DNA of 64,000 bases from Paenibacillus sp. MMS20-IR301 (GTDB lineage Bacteria > Bacillota > Bacilli > Paenibacillales > Paenibacillaceae). Below are positions 48,205 to 54,025 of this stretch, piece by piece. Under the pieces are notes generated by a model, which ran no database searches, was not told the origin of the DNA, and saw only the letters and a program-made list of their open reading frames with translations. Every line of letters starts with the position of its first letter. Within the stretch, counting starts at the first letter, position 1. The stretch covers positions 1,922,001 to 1,986,000 of the forward strand of contig NZ_CP135275.1 in the NCBI RefSeq assembly GCF_032302195.1. Reading direction: 5' to 3'. The translations under genes were made by a program, and so were the position numbers.

Positions 48205-49974
48205 TCAATATTGGCCGGGGTTGCCTTCAAAGGTCACATAGAAACAGACGCCGCCCGCAGTGTTTTTCACTGCATACCGGCAGCCGTGCATATCCAGAAT
48301 TACCTTCGCAATGGACAAACCCAGCCCGTTACCGCCATTCTGGCGGCTGCGTGAAACCTCTGCCCGGTAGAACCGCTCCCAGATCTGCTCCTGCTGATCT
48401 TCGGGGATAGGCTCCCCCAGATTGTGAATAGAGAACATTAGAGCTGTGTTCCGGCTCTCTATATTAATGGTTATCGTACTGCTGTCCTCTGCATGCCGGA
48501 TGGCATTGGTCAGGAAGTTGCTGATTACCTGCTCCATCCGGGCGGCGTCGGCATACAGCGGCCTTTCGTTCGCCGGAATAATGACGACCTTCAGTTCTTT
48601 TGCCTGGAGCAGATGAATCAGCTTGTCCGATACCTTCTCCGTCAGCTCGCTGAGCATGAATGAGCTTCTGCGCAGCTTGACGGTACCGGATTCCAGCTTG
48701 GCCAAGTCCAGCATATCTTTGACCAGCAGCTCCATCTTGTCCGCTTCTTCAATAATCACCTTGATATAATGGTCCTGCTTGCCCATGTTGACACCGTCCT
48801 CCAGCCCTTCGGCAAAGCCCTTAATAATACTGAGCGGTGTCTTCAATTCATGGGAGGCGCTGGCAAAAAACTCCTGCTGGATCCCCTCCATTCTGCGCTT
48901 GTCCTCCATCTCTTCAACAAGCTGGCGGTTCGCTTCCCGCAGCTCTCCGAGCGCCGCATCCAGGCTTTGGGATAAGGTGAACATGCTGCTGGACAGGCTG
49001 CCCAGCTCATCCTTTTGCCGGATCGGAGGTCCGCCGGTGAAGTCCAGGGACACCATGCGTCCCGCTATATCATTCAGCTTAATCAGCGGACGGGTGACCA
49101 GCTTGGAGAAGAAGAGCGACAGTACAAGAATCAGGATAAACCCGCCGATCCCCAGGTACAAAAAGAACCAGCGCAGCGCTTGATTCGAATCCTTCACATC
49201 CTGCAGTGAGGTTACTGTGAACAACAGTTCAATTCCCCCGTCAGCCTGCTGCACGGGCAGAACAATGACAGAGTTACGGATGCCGCTCCACGGTGCGGTC
49301 CACTCTTCCTTCAGCAGATGCAGCTGCTCCAAGTCCTCTGTCTGGGCTGCTGTAAGCGGGAACCAGTCATCAAGCGCTTCAAGCAAAATGCCTTGACGCG
49401 GATTCCAGATTCTCTGCTCCGGCAGGACCAGCTCAATTACCGTTCCGGATACAGTAGCCAGCCCGTTCATTTCGCCTTCACCTACGGTAGCTTCTCCCTG
49501 CTTCTTAATGGAGAACGGGTAGATTTGTGCATCAGCAGCCCCGTCTTCTTCATCCCGTTCGCCCTGAACAGTCACCTGGTCCCCTTCTGCAATATCTGCT
49601 GCTCTAAGGATATCGCCATACTGGTTCATAAACAGGGATAACGGAATCACCTGAAGCTTGCCGCTTTCATCCATCAGCTTCATCCGGAACGGATCCTCCG
49701 ACTTCAACCGCCCGCTAAGATCCACAATGACCATCTGCGTCTTGTTGCTCAGCATGAAGCTGACCAGCTCGCGTGAAGTCCGGCTGTTCCCCCAGGCTCC
49801 GCTGGTGTAGTCTGCTCCGAAGCTCTTCAGATGCTTTTCCACTCTGGATTCCTTCTGGTTCTGGTAGAAGCTGTCGAAGAACAGCAGCTGGCCCAGAATT
49901 ACCATGCCGTAGAAGCAGACAAAGAAGATCACCGTCATAATAAACAGCTTGAGGGTTATCCCGCGTCTTCTCAT
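48205..49974 (-). CDS. Sensor histidine kinase of the lipid operon
   Basis: The 589-residue protein has TM1 near 8-32, a large extracytoplasmic domain of about 240 residues, TM2 near 275-297, HAMP, the acceptor His in SASHELKTP (about 372), and HATPase motifs NFLTNAIRH and GNGLGLSI. Its ATG overlaps the response regulator stop (ATGA). Confidence 0.92.
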   Translation of the reverse strand: MRRRGITLKLFIMTVIFFVCFYGMVILGQLLFFDSFYQNQKESRVEKHLKSFGADYTSGAWGNSRTSRELVSFMLSNKTQMVIVDLSGRLKSEDPFRMKLMDESGKLQVIPLSLFMNQYGDILRAADIAEGDQVTVQGERDEEDGAADAQIYPFSIKKQGEATVGEGEMNGLATVSGTVIELVLPEQRIWNPRQGILLEALDDWFPLTAAQTEDLEQLHLLKEEWTAPWSGIRNSVIVLPVQQADGGIELLFTVTSLQDVKDSNQALRWFFLYLGIGGFILILVLSLFFSKLVTRPLIKLNDIAGRMVSLDFTGGPPIRQKDELGSLSSSMFTLSQSLDAALGELREANRQLVEEMEDKRRMEGIQQEFFASASHELKTPLSIIKGFAEGLEDGVNMGKQDHYIKVIIEEADKMELLVKDMLDLAKLESGTVKLRRSSFMLSELTEKVSDKLIHLLQAKELKVVIIPANERPLYADAARMEQVISNFLTNAIRHAEDSSTITINIESRNTALMFSIHNLGEPIPEDQQEQIWERFYRAEVSRSRQNGGNGLGLSIAKVILDMHGCRYAVKNTAGGVCFYVTFEGNPGQY

Positions 49975-50651
49975 TCGGCATCCTCAAACATATATCCGGT
50001 GCCGATTACCGTGCGGATGAAGCGGGATTCATACCCCAGCTTGCTGCGCAGCTTCTTGATGTGGCTGTCCACCACCCTGGAATCTCCGGCAAATTCTATT
50101 CCCCACACCCGGCTGAGGATATTGTCCCGGGAAATTACAATTCCCTGATTACGGATCAGCAGCCACAGAAGATCATATTCCTTCGGGGCCAGCTCGACAT
50201 CTGCACCTTCTACTTCAAGGCGGTGCGCCAGCGGGTTGAAGCTCGCTGAACCAAACCGGATGATTCCGGTCTCCGGCAGATGAGCGCCCTCTACCCGTTT
50301 CATCAGCGCATTCGCCCGGGCCACCAGCACCTTCGGGCTGAAGGGCTTGGTAACGTAATCATCCGCACCCAGCTCAAACCCGTGTATTTTATCATCATCT
50401 GCCGACTTGGCGGTCAGGAGGATCACCGGAATCGCCGATCTCCTGCGGATCTCCCGGCAGACGGTGAACCCGTCCATCTTCGGCAGCATAATATCCAGGA
50501 TAAGCAGATCCGGCTGAAGCGCATCGAACCAGATCAGTGCATCCTGGCCGTTATCCGCCTCGCGCACTTCCCAGCCGTCCCCGGTGAAATAGTCCGCAAT
50601 CAGCTCGCGGATCCGCAGCTCATCTTCAACGATCAGAACCTTTTTCTTCAT
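49971..50651 (-). CDS. OmpR/PhoB-type response regulator of the lipid operon
   Basis: The 226-residue protein MKKKVLIVEDE has phospho-Asp in LLILDIMLPK, Lys in YVTKPF and a winged helix (SRDNILSRVWG, HIKKLRSKLG, TVIGTGYMF). The start at 50651 is fixed by GGGAGCAC and by homology. The frame stays open upstream into the hairpin array up to 51206, but the array-encoded residues (repeating MRKTAYN and similar) are not part of a real protein. Confidence 0.92.
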   Translation of the reverse strand: MKKKVLIVEDELRIRELIADYFTGDGWEVREADNGQDALIWFDALQPDLLILDIMLPKMDGFTVCREIRRRSAIPVILLTAKSADDDKIHGFELGADDYVTKPFSPKVLVARANALMKRVEGAHLPETGIIRFGSASFNPLAHRLEVEGADVELAPKEYDLLWLLIRNQGIVISRDNILSRVWGIEFAGDSRVVDSHIKKLRSKLGYESRFIRTVIGTGYMFEDAE

Positions 50652-50747
50652 GTGCTCCCTGCTTTCAGACTCTTTATGCCTACCAGCATAACAGAGTGAT
50701 ATGTCTTTTGTGTGCCCTGGGCCGAAATTGATATACTGCGGACAATC

Positions 50748-51230
50748 GGCCCGGCGGGCCTCGCGGTGGCGCATTGTATGCGGTTTTCCGCATACAATTG
50801 GGGCCGGGGCCCTCGCGGTGGCGTATTGTATGCGGTTTTCCGCATACAATTGGGGCCGGGGCCCTCGCGGTGGCGCATTGTATGCGGTTTTCCGCATACA
50901 ATTGGGGCCGGGGCCTCGCGGTGGCGCATTGTATGCGGTTTTCCGCATACAATTGGGGCCGGGGCCTCGCGGTGGCGTATTGTATGCGGTTTTCCGCATA
51001 CAATTGGGGCCGGGGCCCTCGCGGTGGCGTATTGTATGCGGTTTTCCGCATACAATTGGGGCCGGGGCCCTCGCGGTGGCGCATTGTATGCGGTTTTCCG
51101 CATACAATTGGGGCCGGGGCCCTCGCGGTGGCGTATTGTATGCGGTTTTCCGCATACAATTGGGGCCGGTCCCTCGCGGTGGCGCATTGTATGCGGTTTT
51201 CCGCATACAATTGGGGCCGGGGCCCTCGCA
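50748..51230. repeat. Tandem array of nine perfect palindromes
   Basis: Nine identical 26-bp palindromes (arm ATTGTATGCGG, loop TTTT, arm CCGCATACAAT) start at 50773, 50825, 50877, 50928, 50979, 51031, 51083, 51135 and 51186, with a 51- or 52-bp period. The 25/26-bp GC-rich spacers (TGGGGCCGGGGCCC, TCGCGGTGGCG and C or T) vary in length and at single bases, while all nine palindromes are identical. It sits between a response regulator on the minus strand and an AT-rich gene pair on the plus strand. It is not CRISPR, since spacers are not unique. Bases 50652-51375 hold no other gene. Confidence 0.95.
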
Positions 51231-51375
51231 TAGGGATAGGGACTTGCTGCCGCTTTTTTATCTGCTCTATTATCTGTTCCACTTTTTTCTTATTCAAAAC
51301 CAATGCTATATGTTAACTGTACAGATAGCTGGATTACATTTCATGGTAAAATACACGTAACAGATTTCGGCTAAG

Positions 51376-51672
51376 GTGGTGGCAGAAAAGGTGAATCAGC
51401 AGTGGCTGGCATATCGAATATATCCAGGAGCATCCGGGACAGAGTACCGGCAATACGATTTAACAGATACAACTGAAGTTGAGCGTTTATTCGATTACTG
51501 TCAGATATTAGAAGCGGTAATTTCAAGAGCTGGTTGGAAGGTATTAATTGAATATCATAATTATCAAGGATTATATGAGATCAATGAGCGAAGCGGTTGG
51601 TTTGACTGCAACAACCTTGAAGAATTTATCTCTGAAGTGGAGTCTCACATTGATTCATTAACTGAATATTAA
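51376..51672 (+). CDS. Small hypothetical protein in AT-rich islet
   Basis: This soluble protein of up to 98 residues is acidic and rich in Tyr, Glu and Ile, with no recognised domain. GTG starts at 51376 and 51391 are both possible, neither with a perfect ribosome site. Its base composition is clearly more AT-rich than the flanking genes, suggesting transfer. It is followed 37 bp later by the EF-Tu-like gene. Its size and character would fit an immunity or antitoxin-type protein, but this is speculation. Confidence 0.6.
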   Translation: MVAEKVNQQWLAYRIYPGASGTEYRQYDLTDTTEVERLFDYCQILEAVISRAGWKVLIEYHNYQGLYEINERSGWFDCNNLEEFISEVESHIDSLTEY

Positions 51673-51709
51673 ATCAATGTTAAACTCTTCAGAACGGAAG
51701 GTGGTATGC

Positions 51710-52132
51710 ATGTTACCTCATATTGAAGCCAAAATAACATTATTTAAAAGTGATGGACAAGGAAATGGCCGGCTTACCTCTGCTTGCTCAGGCTACCGTC
51801 CGGCTCATTTAATAAAAGATGATTATTTAACAACAGGAATACATCAATACTACGGAGATGTTTTCGCTCAACCAGGTGAGACTGTGATGGGAACTATTAC
51901 TTTCATCACTCCGGAGTATTATCCTCGGACATTATGGATCGGTAAATGCATCCGAATTCAGGAGGGAGCCAGAATAGTCGGCCAAGCAGAGGTTACACAA
52001 ATTTTCAATGAACTATTGATAAAAGCTGAAGGTTTCGAAGCAGACGACAGTTTTATAGATTATTACCAGCCCGGTAATTTACTGTCTCGCCTAAAAGGAG
52101 CACTATTACAAAAAAAAGCAAAGCTCCCATAG
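51710..52132 (+). CDS. Stand-alone EF-Tu domain III-like protein
   Basis: The 140-residue protein reads IEAKITLFKSDGQGNGR at the start, SGYRPAHLI in the middle and IQEGARIVGQAEVTQIF near residue 105, patterns that match the EF-Tu C-terminal beta barrel (RPQF..., LREGGRTVGAGVV). There is no GTPase domain. It may mimic or bind EF-Tu partners. ATG 51710 is supported by GGAAGGTGG, better than the upstream frame start. It shares low GC with its upstream neighbour. Confidence 0.65.
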   Translation: MLPHIEAKITLFKSDGQGNGRLTSACSGYRPAHLIKDDYLTTGIHQYYGDVFAQPGETVMGTITFITPEYYPRTLWIGKCIRIQEGARIVGQAEVTQIFNELLIKAEGFEADDSFIDYYQPGNLLSRLKGALLQKKAKLP

Positions 52133-52144
52133 CTGGAGCTTTGC
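52110..52144 (-). terminator. Terminator of the ABC exporter operon
   Basis: Stem GCAAAGCTCC/GGAGCTTTGC followed by TTTTTTTT on the minus strand. It overlaps the last codons of the plus-strand EF-Tu-like gene. Confidence 0.85.
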
Positions 52145-52186
52145 CTTAGTGTATTAAGCATTCAAAAATATTATGAACAGCAGATG

Positions 52187-54025
52187 TTACCCTGCTTGGA
52201 TCGCATGCCTGAACTGGCTGTCGTACAGCTCATGGTATACCCCGTTCAAGGCAAGCAGCTGTTCATGGCTGCCCTGCTCAGCGATCTGCCCGCCCTGGAT
52301 CACCAGAATCCGGTCCGCATCCTGAATCGTGCTGAGCCTGTGGGCGATTACGAAGCTGGTCCGGCCCTTCATCAAGGTACGCATGGCCTGCTGGATATGC
52401 ATCTCAGTCCGCGTATCCACGCTGCTCGTCGCTTCATCCAGAATCAGGATCGCCGGATCAGCCAGGATCGCCCGGGCAATGGTCAGCAGCTGGCGCTGCC
52501 CGTGGCTTAAGGTCGTCCCCTCTGTGCCTAGCAGCGTATCATAACCCTGAGGAAGCCTAGCGATGAAGCCGCTGACGTTAGCCAGCCTAGCGGCCTCCTC
52601 TACCTCACGGTCCGTAGCCTCCAGCCGGCCGAACCGGATGTTCTCGCGGATCGTTCCCGAGAAGACGTGGGCATCCTGCAGTACCATGCCGAGCTGGCTG
52701 CGCAGCTCATTCTTGTTCAGGCTGCGGATGTCCTGCCCGTCAATCAGCAGCTCCCCGCTGCTGATCTCATAGAAGCGGGTCAGCAGGTTGACGATCGTCG
52801 TCTTCCCTGCTCCGGTCGGCCCGACGAGCGCGATCTTCTCGCCCGGCCGGGCCGTGAAGCTGACGCCGCTTAAGATAGGCGAATCGGCCTGGTACCCGAA
52901 ATGTACATCGCGGAAAACAACCTCCCCGCGAAGCCGCGGCAGCGCCTGAGGCTGCTCACCCGCATACTCCGAAGGCATATCCATCACTTCGAACACCCGC
53001 TCTGCACCGGCAATGGCCGATTGGATCAGATTATACTGGTTCGCAAGCTCGGCGATCGGACGGCTGAACTGCTTGGCATAATTCAGCATACTGACGATAA
53101 CCCCGACGGTGGCCAGCTCCTTATAGGCCATCCATCCGCCGGCCGCCGCAATCAGCGCGAAGTCCAAATTGTTGATCATGTTCATCACCGGGCCTACCAG
53201 TCCGGAGACGATCTGCGCTTTGATGCTGACTTTGTTCAGCTCTCCGCTAAGCCCGCGGAAGCGGACGGTTTCCGCCTCTTCCCGGCGGTATTGCTTAATG
53301 ACCTTCTGTCCGCTGATCGCTTCTTCAATATAGCCGTTCAGCTCTCCGAGATGCTTTTGCTGGTTCTTGAAATAGATCCGGCTGAGGCTTGTAATCCGGC
53401 GGCTGGCCAGCAGCACGAGCGGAATAGTAACCAGTGCAATAAGCGTCAGCGGGACATTCAGCAGCAGCATAATGACCAGTGACCCGCTTAGCGAAATCAG
53501 ACTGTTGAGCAGCTGGGTTACACTTTGGTTCAATGAATTCGACACATTGTCGATATCATTGGTTGCCCGGCTCATTAATTCCCCGTTAGCCCGGGTATCG
53601 AAGAAGCTGACTGGCAGCTCCTGATACTTAGCGAAGAGATCGCGCCGCAGCTCAAATACGGTCCGCTGCGAGACGGAGGTCATCACGTATGCCTGCACCC
53701 AGGATACACAGCTGCCGAGCAGATAGATGCCGCCCAGCAGGATGCAGAACCGGACCAGCAGTCCATAATCCTGGGGAATGATTGCCGAATCAATAGCCTT
53801 GCCCAGCAGGTACGGGCCGGTCAGGGCAACAACAGCGTTCAGGACTGTAAACAGGTAGACCATGATCAGCCCTGCACGCTGACGGTTCAAATAGCTCCAG
53901 ATCCGTTTAATTGTGGCCGCAGTATTCTTGGCCCTGACCTTGGGCACTGTTCCGCGGCCAAACGGACCGCCGCCGAAGCCGCCGGGACGTCCGGGTGCCT
54001 GCGCCTGATTAGGATGACTGGACAT
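52187..54025 (-). CDS. ABC exporter half-transporter with canonical ATPase site (YfiC-like)
   Basis: The 612-residue protein has an N-terminal Gly/Pro/Arg-rich tail, six membrane helices (about 55-345) and an ATPase domain with Walker A GPTGAGKTT, an unusual signature LSHGQ, and Walker B ILILDEATSSVD with catalytic Glu. It overlaps its partner gene by 17 bp. Together they form a heterodimeric multidrug or lipid exporter. Confidence 0.92.
   Translation of the reverse strand: MSSHPNQAQAPGRPGGFGGGPFGRGTVPKVRAKNTAATIKRIWSYLNRQRAGLIMVYLFTVLNAVVALTGPYLLGKAIDSAIIPQDYGLLVRFCILLGGIYLLGSCVSWVQAYVMTSVSQRTVFELRRDLFAKYQELPVSFFDTRANGELMSRATNDIDNVSNSLNQSVTQLLNSLISLSGSLVIMLLLNVPLTLIALVTIPLVLLASRRITSLSRIYFKNQQKHLGELNGYIEEAISGQKVIKQYRREEAETVRFRGLSGELNKVSIKAQIVSGLVGPVMNMINNLDFALIAAAGGWMAYKELATVGVIVSMLNYAKQFSRPIAELANQYNLIQSAIAGAERVFEVMDMPSEYAGEQPQALPRLRGEVVFRDVHFGYQADSPILSGVSFTARPGEKIALVGPTGAGKTTIVNLLTRFYEISSGELLIDGQDIRSLNKNELRSQLGMVLQDAHVFSGTIRENIRFGRLEATDREVEEAARLANVSGFIARLPQGYDTLLGTEGTTLSHGQRQLLTIARAILADPAILILDEATSSVDTRTEMHIQQAMRTLMKGRTSFVIAHRLSTIQDADRILVIQGGQIAEQGSHEQLLALNGVYHELYDSQFRHAIQAG

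Follow-up and report, generated by a model that had tools for sequence, protein, structure and literature searches.

The subject of this account is a tandem array of short palindromes in the genome of Paenibacillus sp. MMS20-IR301 (here G000; contig NZ_CP135275.1), examined in a stretch of 64,000 nucleotides (positions 1,922,001 to 1,986,000 of the forward strand) that will be called the window. Nine units of 51–52 bp follow one another head-to-tail, each containing the same 26-bp palindrome, and comparison with related genomes makes it likely that they are dispersed, gene-less copies of the DNA sites cognate to a two-domain protein whose gene lies some 267 kb away. The features at the locus, in window coordinates, are:

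50751–51229, plus strand (the strand of the TTTT loop): tandem array, 9.2 units of 51–52 bp (from Tandem Repeats Finder (TRF), matches to the repeat model R1 described below, and the sequence itself)
Minus strand: the strand of the window array that matches the coding strand of the cognate gene
50773–50798, plus strand: palindromic core 1 (exact match, as for all nine cores)
50825–50850, plus strand: palindromic core 2
50877–50902, plus strand: palindromic core 3
50928–50953, plus strand: palindromic core 4
50979–51004, plus strand: palindromic core 5
51031–51056, plus strand: palindromic core 6
51083–51108, plus strand: palindromic core 7
51135–51160, plus strand: palindromic core 8
51186–51211, plus strand: palindromic core 9
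51212–51235, plus strand: final spacer, truncated, departing from the repeat after CCCTCGC (unit comparison)
48205–49974, minus strand: histidine kinase
49971–50651, minus strand: response regulator
51376–51672, plus strand: AT-rich open reading frame (ORF) 1
51677–52132, plus strand: AT-rich ORF 2

The initial annotation of this DNA had described nine identical 26-bp palindromes at 51–52-bp spacing, lying between a response regulator and an AT-rich gene pair, and this description is borne out: the neighbours are located as listed, and an exact-match search (nine copies of ATTGTATGCGG-TTTT-CCGCATACAAT between 50773 and 51211) agrees with TRF, which reports a period of 52. When up to 3 mismatches were allowed, a palindrome search gave 9 matches in the window and 0 in 100 shuffles. 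The steps from core to core are 52, 52, 51, 51, 52, 52, 52 and 51 bp, and, while all nine cores are identical, the spacers differ by single bases and in length by one base, as had also been noted (C/T differences, a one-base deletion, and GGGGCCC → GGTCCC). The near-identity of these spacers led to rejection of a CRISPR array as an explanation (cas genes were not searched for). The annotation had further suggested that selection or gene conversion acts on the hairpins, rather than duplication of the unit as a whole, and this stands only in part: the units of the window array are nearly identical as wholes, so that recent whole-unit duplication did take place, while between loci it is indeed the core that is more conserved. 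Across 16 own-genome arrays identity was 0.86 in the core against 0.53 in the spacer, the former figure being biased upwards because the cores had been picked by their similarity, with no more than 4 of 22 positions mismatched.

The palindrome is widely dispersed. In the own genome (7.69 Mb) about 28 places match a query of two units, and a covariance model of the repeat (R1), built from 81 aligned units, returned at least 99 rows at E ≤ 1 and at least 34 loci at E ≤ 0.01; in 100 genomes of the genus it found matches in at least 34, of which at least 26 have 8 or more and are here termed repeat-rich. It should be borne in mind that the match counts per genome given in this account (for the own genome, the 100 genus genomes, the distant species G007 and the group-B unit introduced below) are lower bounds, and that the threshold of 8 matches, like the 64% identity used below to define orthologues, was set after seeing the data. 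The core is also present in contigs of Paenibacillus species, a Cohnella and a Paenibacillaceae metagenome-assembled genome; an origin of the array from a plasmid or phage was rejected, there being no match among plasmids or phages and no canonical core found in viral contigs. Copy number varies, for instance from 4 units in G088 to 1 in G112 at one shared site. Recurrence at many loci with variable copy number, which the annotation had named as the sign of a functional element, is therefore what is seen, and the palindrome is far from confined to the window locus, a confinement that it had associated with a neutral satellite. Core spacing in own-genome arrays outside the window is again 51 or 52 in 35 of 37 steps. 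The canonical core of the family carries one mismatch (TGTATTCGG/CCGCATACA) and the window version is perfect; folded as single-stranded DNA, it is the more stable, its units giving −11.8 and −12.2 kcal/mol, whereas those of the array beside the cognate gene give −6.7 and −8.0 kcal/mol.

It was the largest arrays that led to this gene (G000:C1:2240806-2241489, minus strand), which encodes a protein of 227 residues and at whose stop codon an own-genome array (2240574–2240805) ends. Homologous genes adjoin arrays in other genomes: at the loci of its close relatives (group A), R1 matches lie within 50 bp of the gene in 24 of 27 fetched cases, with one more at 273 bp. Group-A orthologues (at least 64% identity) occur in 28 of the 100 genus genomes, and their distribution follows that of the repeat, the gene being present in 25 of 26 repeat-rich genomes (in one case truncated, in another with a stop) and in 3 of the 74 others; a Fisher test of this co-occurrence treats genomes as independent, and these genomes are related. 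Copies of the gene in its two lines A1 and A2 share long flanks between species, and copies within one genome share only a leader and the gene, so that vertical inheritance is suggested rather than an active transposon. The leader occupies roughly the 150 bp before the nuclease gene and is conserved in groups A and B; as read by eye at loci L262–L291, a small hairpin with an AAGAA loop (GGCA-AAGAA-TGCC type) is followed by a terminator-like GC-rich hairpin and a T run, and the whole looks like transcription attenuation. Near the nuclease genes of a few loci (L286, L291, L305, L309, L316) there are also 41–45-bp tandem arrays of other sequences.

More distant homologues carry arrays of the same geometry (a 51–52-bp period, and a palindrome with a 4-nt loop, mostly A-rich on the gene strand) built on other palindromes. 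In group B (43–50% identity), 51-bp arrays start between −1 and +90 bp from the stop codon in 19 of 23 fetched loci, with a single core at the array place in two further loci; examples of the palindrome are AATCAGAGGTA-CTTA-TACCTCTGATT, AACAACGGCA-GAAA-TGCCGTTGTT and AGGGGCA-GAAG-TGCCCCT. One group-B unit is likewise dispersed genome-wide in five of ten genomes searched (at least 148, 124, 64, 43 and 31 matches), 0 to 9 matches being listed in the other five. In group C a 51-bp array lies within 110 bp of the stop codon in only 1 (L391) of 37 fetched loci (20 in a first set and 17 in other genera), and at one further locus (L330) two 51-bp palindrome units lie 338 bp off. For other genera of the order, TRF finds an array at the gene in 2 of 3 loci of groups A and B and in 1 of 17 of group C; the third of the A/B loci (L384, group A) has a palindrome on either side. 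Across the order, matches to the protein family occur in 219 of 296 genomes and 40 of 48 genera.

Since protein and palindrome both vary, it can be asked which part of the protein the palindrome follows. For this comparison each of 42 loci was represented by a single consensus core, 33 of these cores being distinct; L267, L279, L300 and L371 were left out as their automatic centre fell outside the core, and L284 has no array within the place limits of core extraction. The register of the core is fixed by an outer ATG...AT-like frame common to most loci. The arms are complementary in 125 of 160 cells for group A and in 125 of 170 for group B, a level that none of 5000 within-group shuffles matched in either group, the test being somewhat favoured by the fact that the core centre was chosen by complementarity. 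Within each group, palindrome divergence follows the C-terminal winged helix of the protein and not its N-terminal nuclease domain: in partial Mantel tests core distance correlates with winged-helix distance with the nuclease domain held constant (r = 0.50 and 0.53, p = 0.0005), and not in the reverse test (r = −0.18 and −0.11). Among the roles that the annotation had listed, a binding array for a dimeric protein is thus the best supported, since there is now a candidate protein whose DNA-binding domain coevolves with the palindrome.

Covariation of the arms across homologues would also be expected if the hairpins acted as RNA, whether as a 3′-untranslated-region stabiliser, a terminator, or a decoy that the protein binds on the mRNA encoding it, and the fact that arrays begin right after the stop codon fits such a role, as do weak, sub-threshold matches of group-C proteins to Pfam RAP, a domain linked to RNA binding. 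Set against this, columns 10:21 of the stem are unpaired in 72 of the 81 aligned group-A units, their consensus RNA fold is only a 5-pair helix (−0.28 kcal/mol), and most copies are distant from the gene and, in the own genome, in both orientations. A known RNA family was rejected, no Rfam match exceeding the gathering score at window positions 49000–53000; on four loci of G007, Rfam gave only sub-threshold T-box and mir-16 matches elsewhere in the loci. An RNA hairpin array is on these grounds rather improbable. An attempt to derive a strand preference from G:U-type asymmetry in the stem pairs gave a mixed result and was dropped.

The 227-residue protein is predicted to comprise an N-terminal domain like those of the Vsr and EDxHD (homing-endonuclease) enzymes and a C-terminal winged helix, the predicted structure showing a Vsr-type nuclease fold. 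Residues D69, E82 and H89 are present in all 85 aligned proteins and D92 in 84 of them, and the D...ExK motif is intact in groups B and C. Scores for Pfam DUF559 (PF04480, cut-off 20.6) pass for three tested group-C proteins (22.6, 25.9, 25.8) and fail for a group-B protein (14.1); the own group-A protein is also below this cut-off, its only match being AbiEi_4, itself below cut-off. Several homologues carry the database name ‘very-short-patch-repair endonuclease’, and the material consulted on the DUF559 family shows no repeat association. From the EDxHD homing endonuclease I-Bth0305I (PDB 3r3p; PMC3943268) the present system differs in that the candidate DNA reader is the C-terminal winged helix, that the sites are tandem arrays, and that group A lacks Lys84.

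In group A, which is the host's own group, position 84 is Met in 26 of 26 proteins, where Lys stands in 59 of 59 from groups B and C, and the pair Met84-Asp85 replaces Lys-Gly; nuclease activity there is accordingly doubtful to judge from the sequence. This opens the way to a different explanation, tentative and on balance unlikely, though the strongest of the alternatives: that the host has domesticated the array as clustered sites for a non-nuclease DNA-binding protein, to organise the nucleoid, insulate the ends of convergent genes or regulate a neighbour such as the response regulator. The Met in place of the catalytic Lys would agree with this, as would the 51–52-bp spacing kept while spacers diverge; retention of the D...ExK motif in groups B and C would not. 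Genomic placement can be read both ways. With gene gaps called by a simple gene caller written for this analysis, convergent gaps hold 18 of 34 own-genome arrays, as against 90 of 621 gaps overall (all fetched loci of G000 and G007, array gaps included), and the distant species G007 shares, with orientation kept, the surroundings of three own-genome arrays (the one at the nuclease gene included), because of which some arrays are probably old. The window array, however, is one of only 2 of the 34 in divergent gaps, and 27 of 30 orthologous regulator loci (fetched from 43 rows) have no core-like site within 1.5 kb upstream.

A role in replication, which the annotation had also raised, receives support in some genomes and not in the own one. 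In G007, 23 of 23 fetched arrays lie on the strand opposite the local leading strand by GC skew (9 of them in convergent or divergent gaps), a 24th array outside the fetched set (4742146–4742405) probably being an exception. With orientation judged by chromosome midpoint and rows grouped into loci by eye, the corresponding figures among the matches listed are 14 of 14 in G063, 28 of 29 in G022 and 23 of 24 in G096. The contigs of these three start with a DnaA-like motif, and the sampled skew flips past the midpoint (at 4.3–5.5 Mb in G063, 3.7–4.3 in G022 and 3.8–4.15 in G096), so that calls near the flips are uncertain. A polar element that pauses or terminates forks, which would always meet the array in one orientation, could account for such a bias, but insertion coupled to the lagging strand would give it equally, and own-genome arrays are unbiased (18 of 34, the origin by GC skew lying between 5.71 and 6.02 Mb); a fork element therefore seems improbable, to much the same degree as the RNA hairpins.

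Arrays in G007 are mostly central in a longer element, with about 200 bp of conserved sequence 5′ and 160 bp 3′. Loci of G093 and G110 contain these modules too; neither module was matched in the own-genome loci, and a larger element around the own-genome arrays was rejected, there being a few short flank matches between loci but no common module. Read by eye at G007 loci such as L223–L231, the 5′ and 3′ modules hold complementary stretches (GCTTACGGAC/GTCCGTAAGC and GGGACGGACCG/CGGTCCGTCCC) in crossing order, possibly structured RNA or old inverted ends. The arrangement recalls the BOX elements of Streptococcus pneumoniae (boxA-boxB(n)-boxC), where a variable number of central units likewise stands between conserved modules; it differs in that the own-genome loci lack modules and that the present repeats have an associated protein family. 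The mycobacterial interspersed repetitive units (MIRU) of Mycobacterium tuberculosis, dispersed intergenic tandem units of about 50–100 bp with variable copy number, are similar in just those respects (the comparison is by architecture only) and different in that the present unit centres on a palindrome tracking a cognate protein. A neutral satellite of MIRU or BOX type, arising by slippage and unequal recombination and spread by general mobile elements with no dedicated protein, would explain the G007 composite, the near-identical window units and the 4-to-1 difference between G088 and G112; set against it are the strong co-occurrence with one gene, the adjacency, and the cores that track the winged helix within groups, and it is quite improbable.

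Palindromic repeat families are common in bacteria, and to our knowledge dedicated proteins have been established for them mainly in the case of the repetitive extragenic palindromic (REP) elements and their REP-associated tyrosine transposases (RAYT). The present system has something of the look of a REPtron as described in PMC3733652: its palindromes are short, extragenic and dispersed, they flank a gene dedicated to them, and copies without the gene are found elsewhere. The cognate gene flanked by its repeat belongs here, however, to an unrelated protein family, a Vsr/EDxHD-like domain with a winged helix in place of an HUH tyrosine transposase, and the repeats are head-to-tail arrays of a fixed 51–52-bp unit rather than paired inverted copies. 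RAYT of the IS200/IS605 type was rejected as mobiliser: Y1_Tnp (PF01797), present in 56 of the 100 genus genomes, has no match in 12 of the 26 repeat-rich ones, including 0 matches in G000, and the consensus of the 81 aligned units shows no GTAG tetranucleotide beside the palindrome. REP elements mobilised in this way are, in consequence, extremely improbable here.

That the palindrome family is dispersed, adjoins one gene, co-occurs with it and coevolves with it follows directly from the computations. What these might mean in mechanistic terms is that two protein subunits would read the two arms of the palindrome through the C-terminal winged helix, at binding sites repeated about every five helical turns; less certainly, the system may propagate its own repeats. 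The protein of groups B and C could cut or nick at the core, with repair from a neighbouring unit, whereby whole units would be gained or lost; now and then the same process might start arrays at other places, in some hosts in time with replication. In group A, with Met in place of Lys, the own-genome array would possibly be bound and no longer cut. The window array is accordingly proposed, from sequence comparison, to be a recently homogenised colony of a nuclease-linked repeat system. Whether all this amounts to a new class of genetic element, namely a homing-endonuclease-derived nuclease with a winged helix that propagates its own palindromic sites as 51–52-bp arrays, in some hosts along the replication direction, with protein and palindrome switching specificity together across Paenibacillales and the window array as a gene-less colony, seems to us evenly balanced.

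A number of observations weigh against the proposed link between protein and repeat, or against parts of it. G101 has at least 68 R1 matches and no group-A gene; conversely, G023 (72% complete) has the gene with one R1 match and G067 (a gene fragment) has none, while the gene in G105 carries a 51-bp array with a different palindrome, TTTGTACGA-AAAA-TCGTACAAA. When groups A and B are taken together, the partial Mantel tests are positive for both domains (winged helix 0.38, nuclease domain 0.29, both p = 0.0005), so that the winged helix stands out only in the tests made within groups; within one core type, hairpin covariation is weak (14 of 500 shuffles reach the score, 81 units), the hairpin being borne out only when homologues are compared. 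In the Foldseek ranking itself Bax1 (E = 2e-4) comes first and an R2 retrotransposon protein (E = 1e-3) next, both at low TM-scores; the match to I-Bth0305I arises from re-alignment. No target-site duplication or clean insertion was found at arrays. To these must be added the Met84-Asp85 replacement, the pattern of flanks shared by the A1 and A2 gene copies, and the unbiased orientation in the own genome, all described above.

In the present case a protein unrelated to RAYT is joined to its repeats by place, phyletic pattern and coevolution, in several sequence versions. Nature has thereby set up an experiment in which a winged helix can be followed as it changes along with its DNA site, and the question of what spreads and maintains palindromic repeats in bacteria becomes testable in soil Paenibacillus. 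A further suggestion is that a repeat-associated system hides behind the labels ‘DUF559’ and ‘very-short-patch-repair endonuclease’. No description of the repeats, or of their link to a Vsr-like protein, was found in the open-access PubMed Central (PMC) literature, and the term ‘Paenibacillus’ is absent from PMC12306157 and PMC3733652.

It remains to describe the immediate surroundings of the window array. The regulator and the ABC-transporter gene beyond the AT-rich ORFs are 1,535 bp apart in the window as against about 150 bp in G084, G063 and G095, where the ORF pair is absent, implying that array and ORF pair were either gained in the window or lost in these three; comparison with such empty sites allowed no target duplication to be read. 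Neither ORF has a Pfam match, and the second weakly matches the C-terminal part of EF-Tu. Because 27 of the 30 orthologous upstream regions are without an array or core-like site, conserved regulation of the regulator operon by the array was rejected, and the neighbouring response regulator is probably incidental. G111 and G086 carry arrays whose unit, though related, differs from that of the window array; place and orientation are the same. Upstream of the regulator, L234 and L241 have adjacent cores of two types (TGTATGTGG/CAGCATACA and the TGTAATCGG type), which resemble those at gene lines A1 and A2. Finally, an unrelated second sequence (TTTATATGTTGCACACGATAACTTATCC...CGGCATAGCCGTTTCTGCTTG type) is present both in L241, at about 1070–1170, and upstream of the nuclease gene in L375, from a different species.
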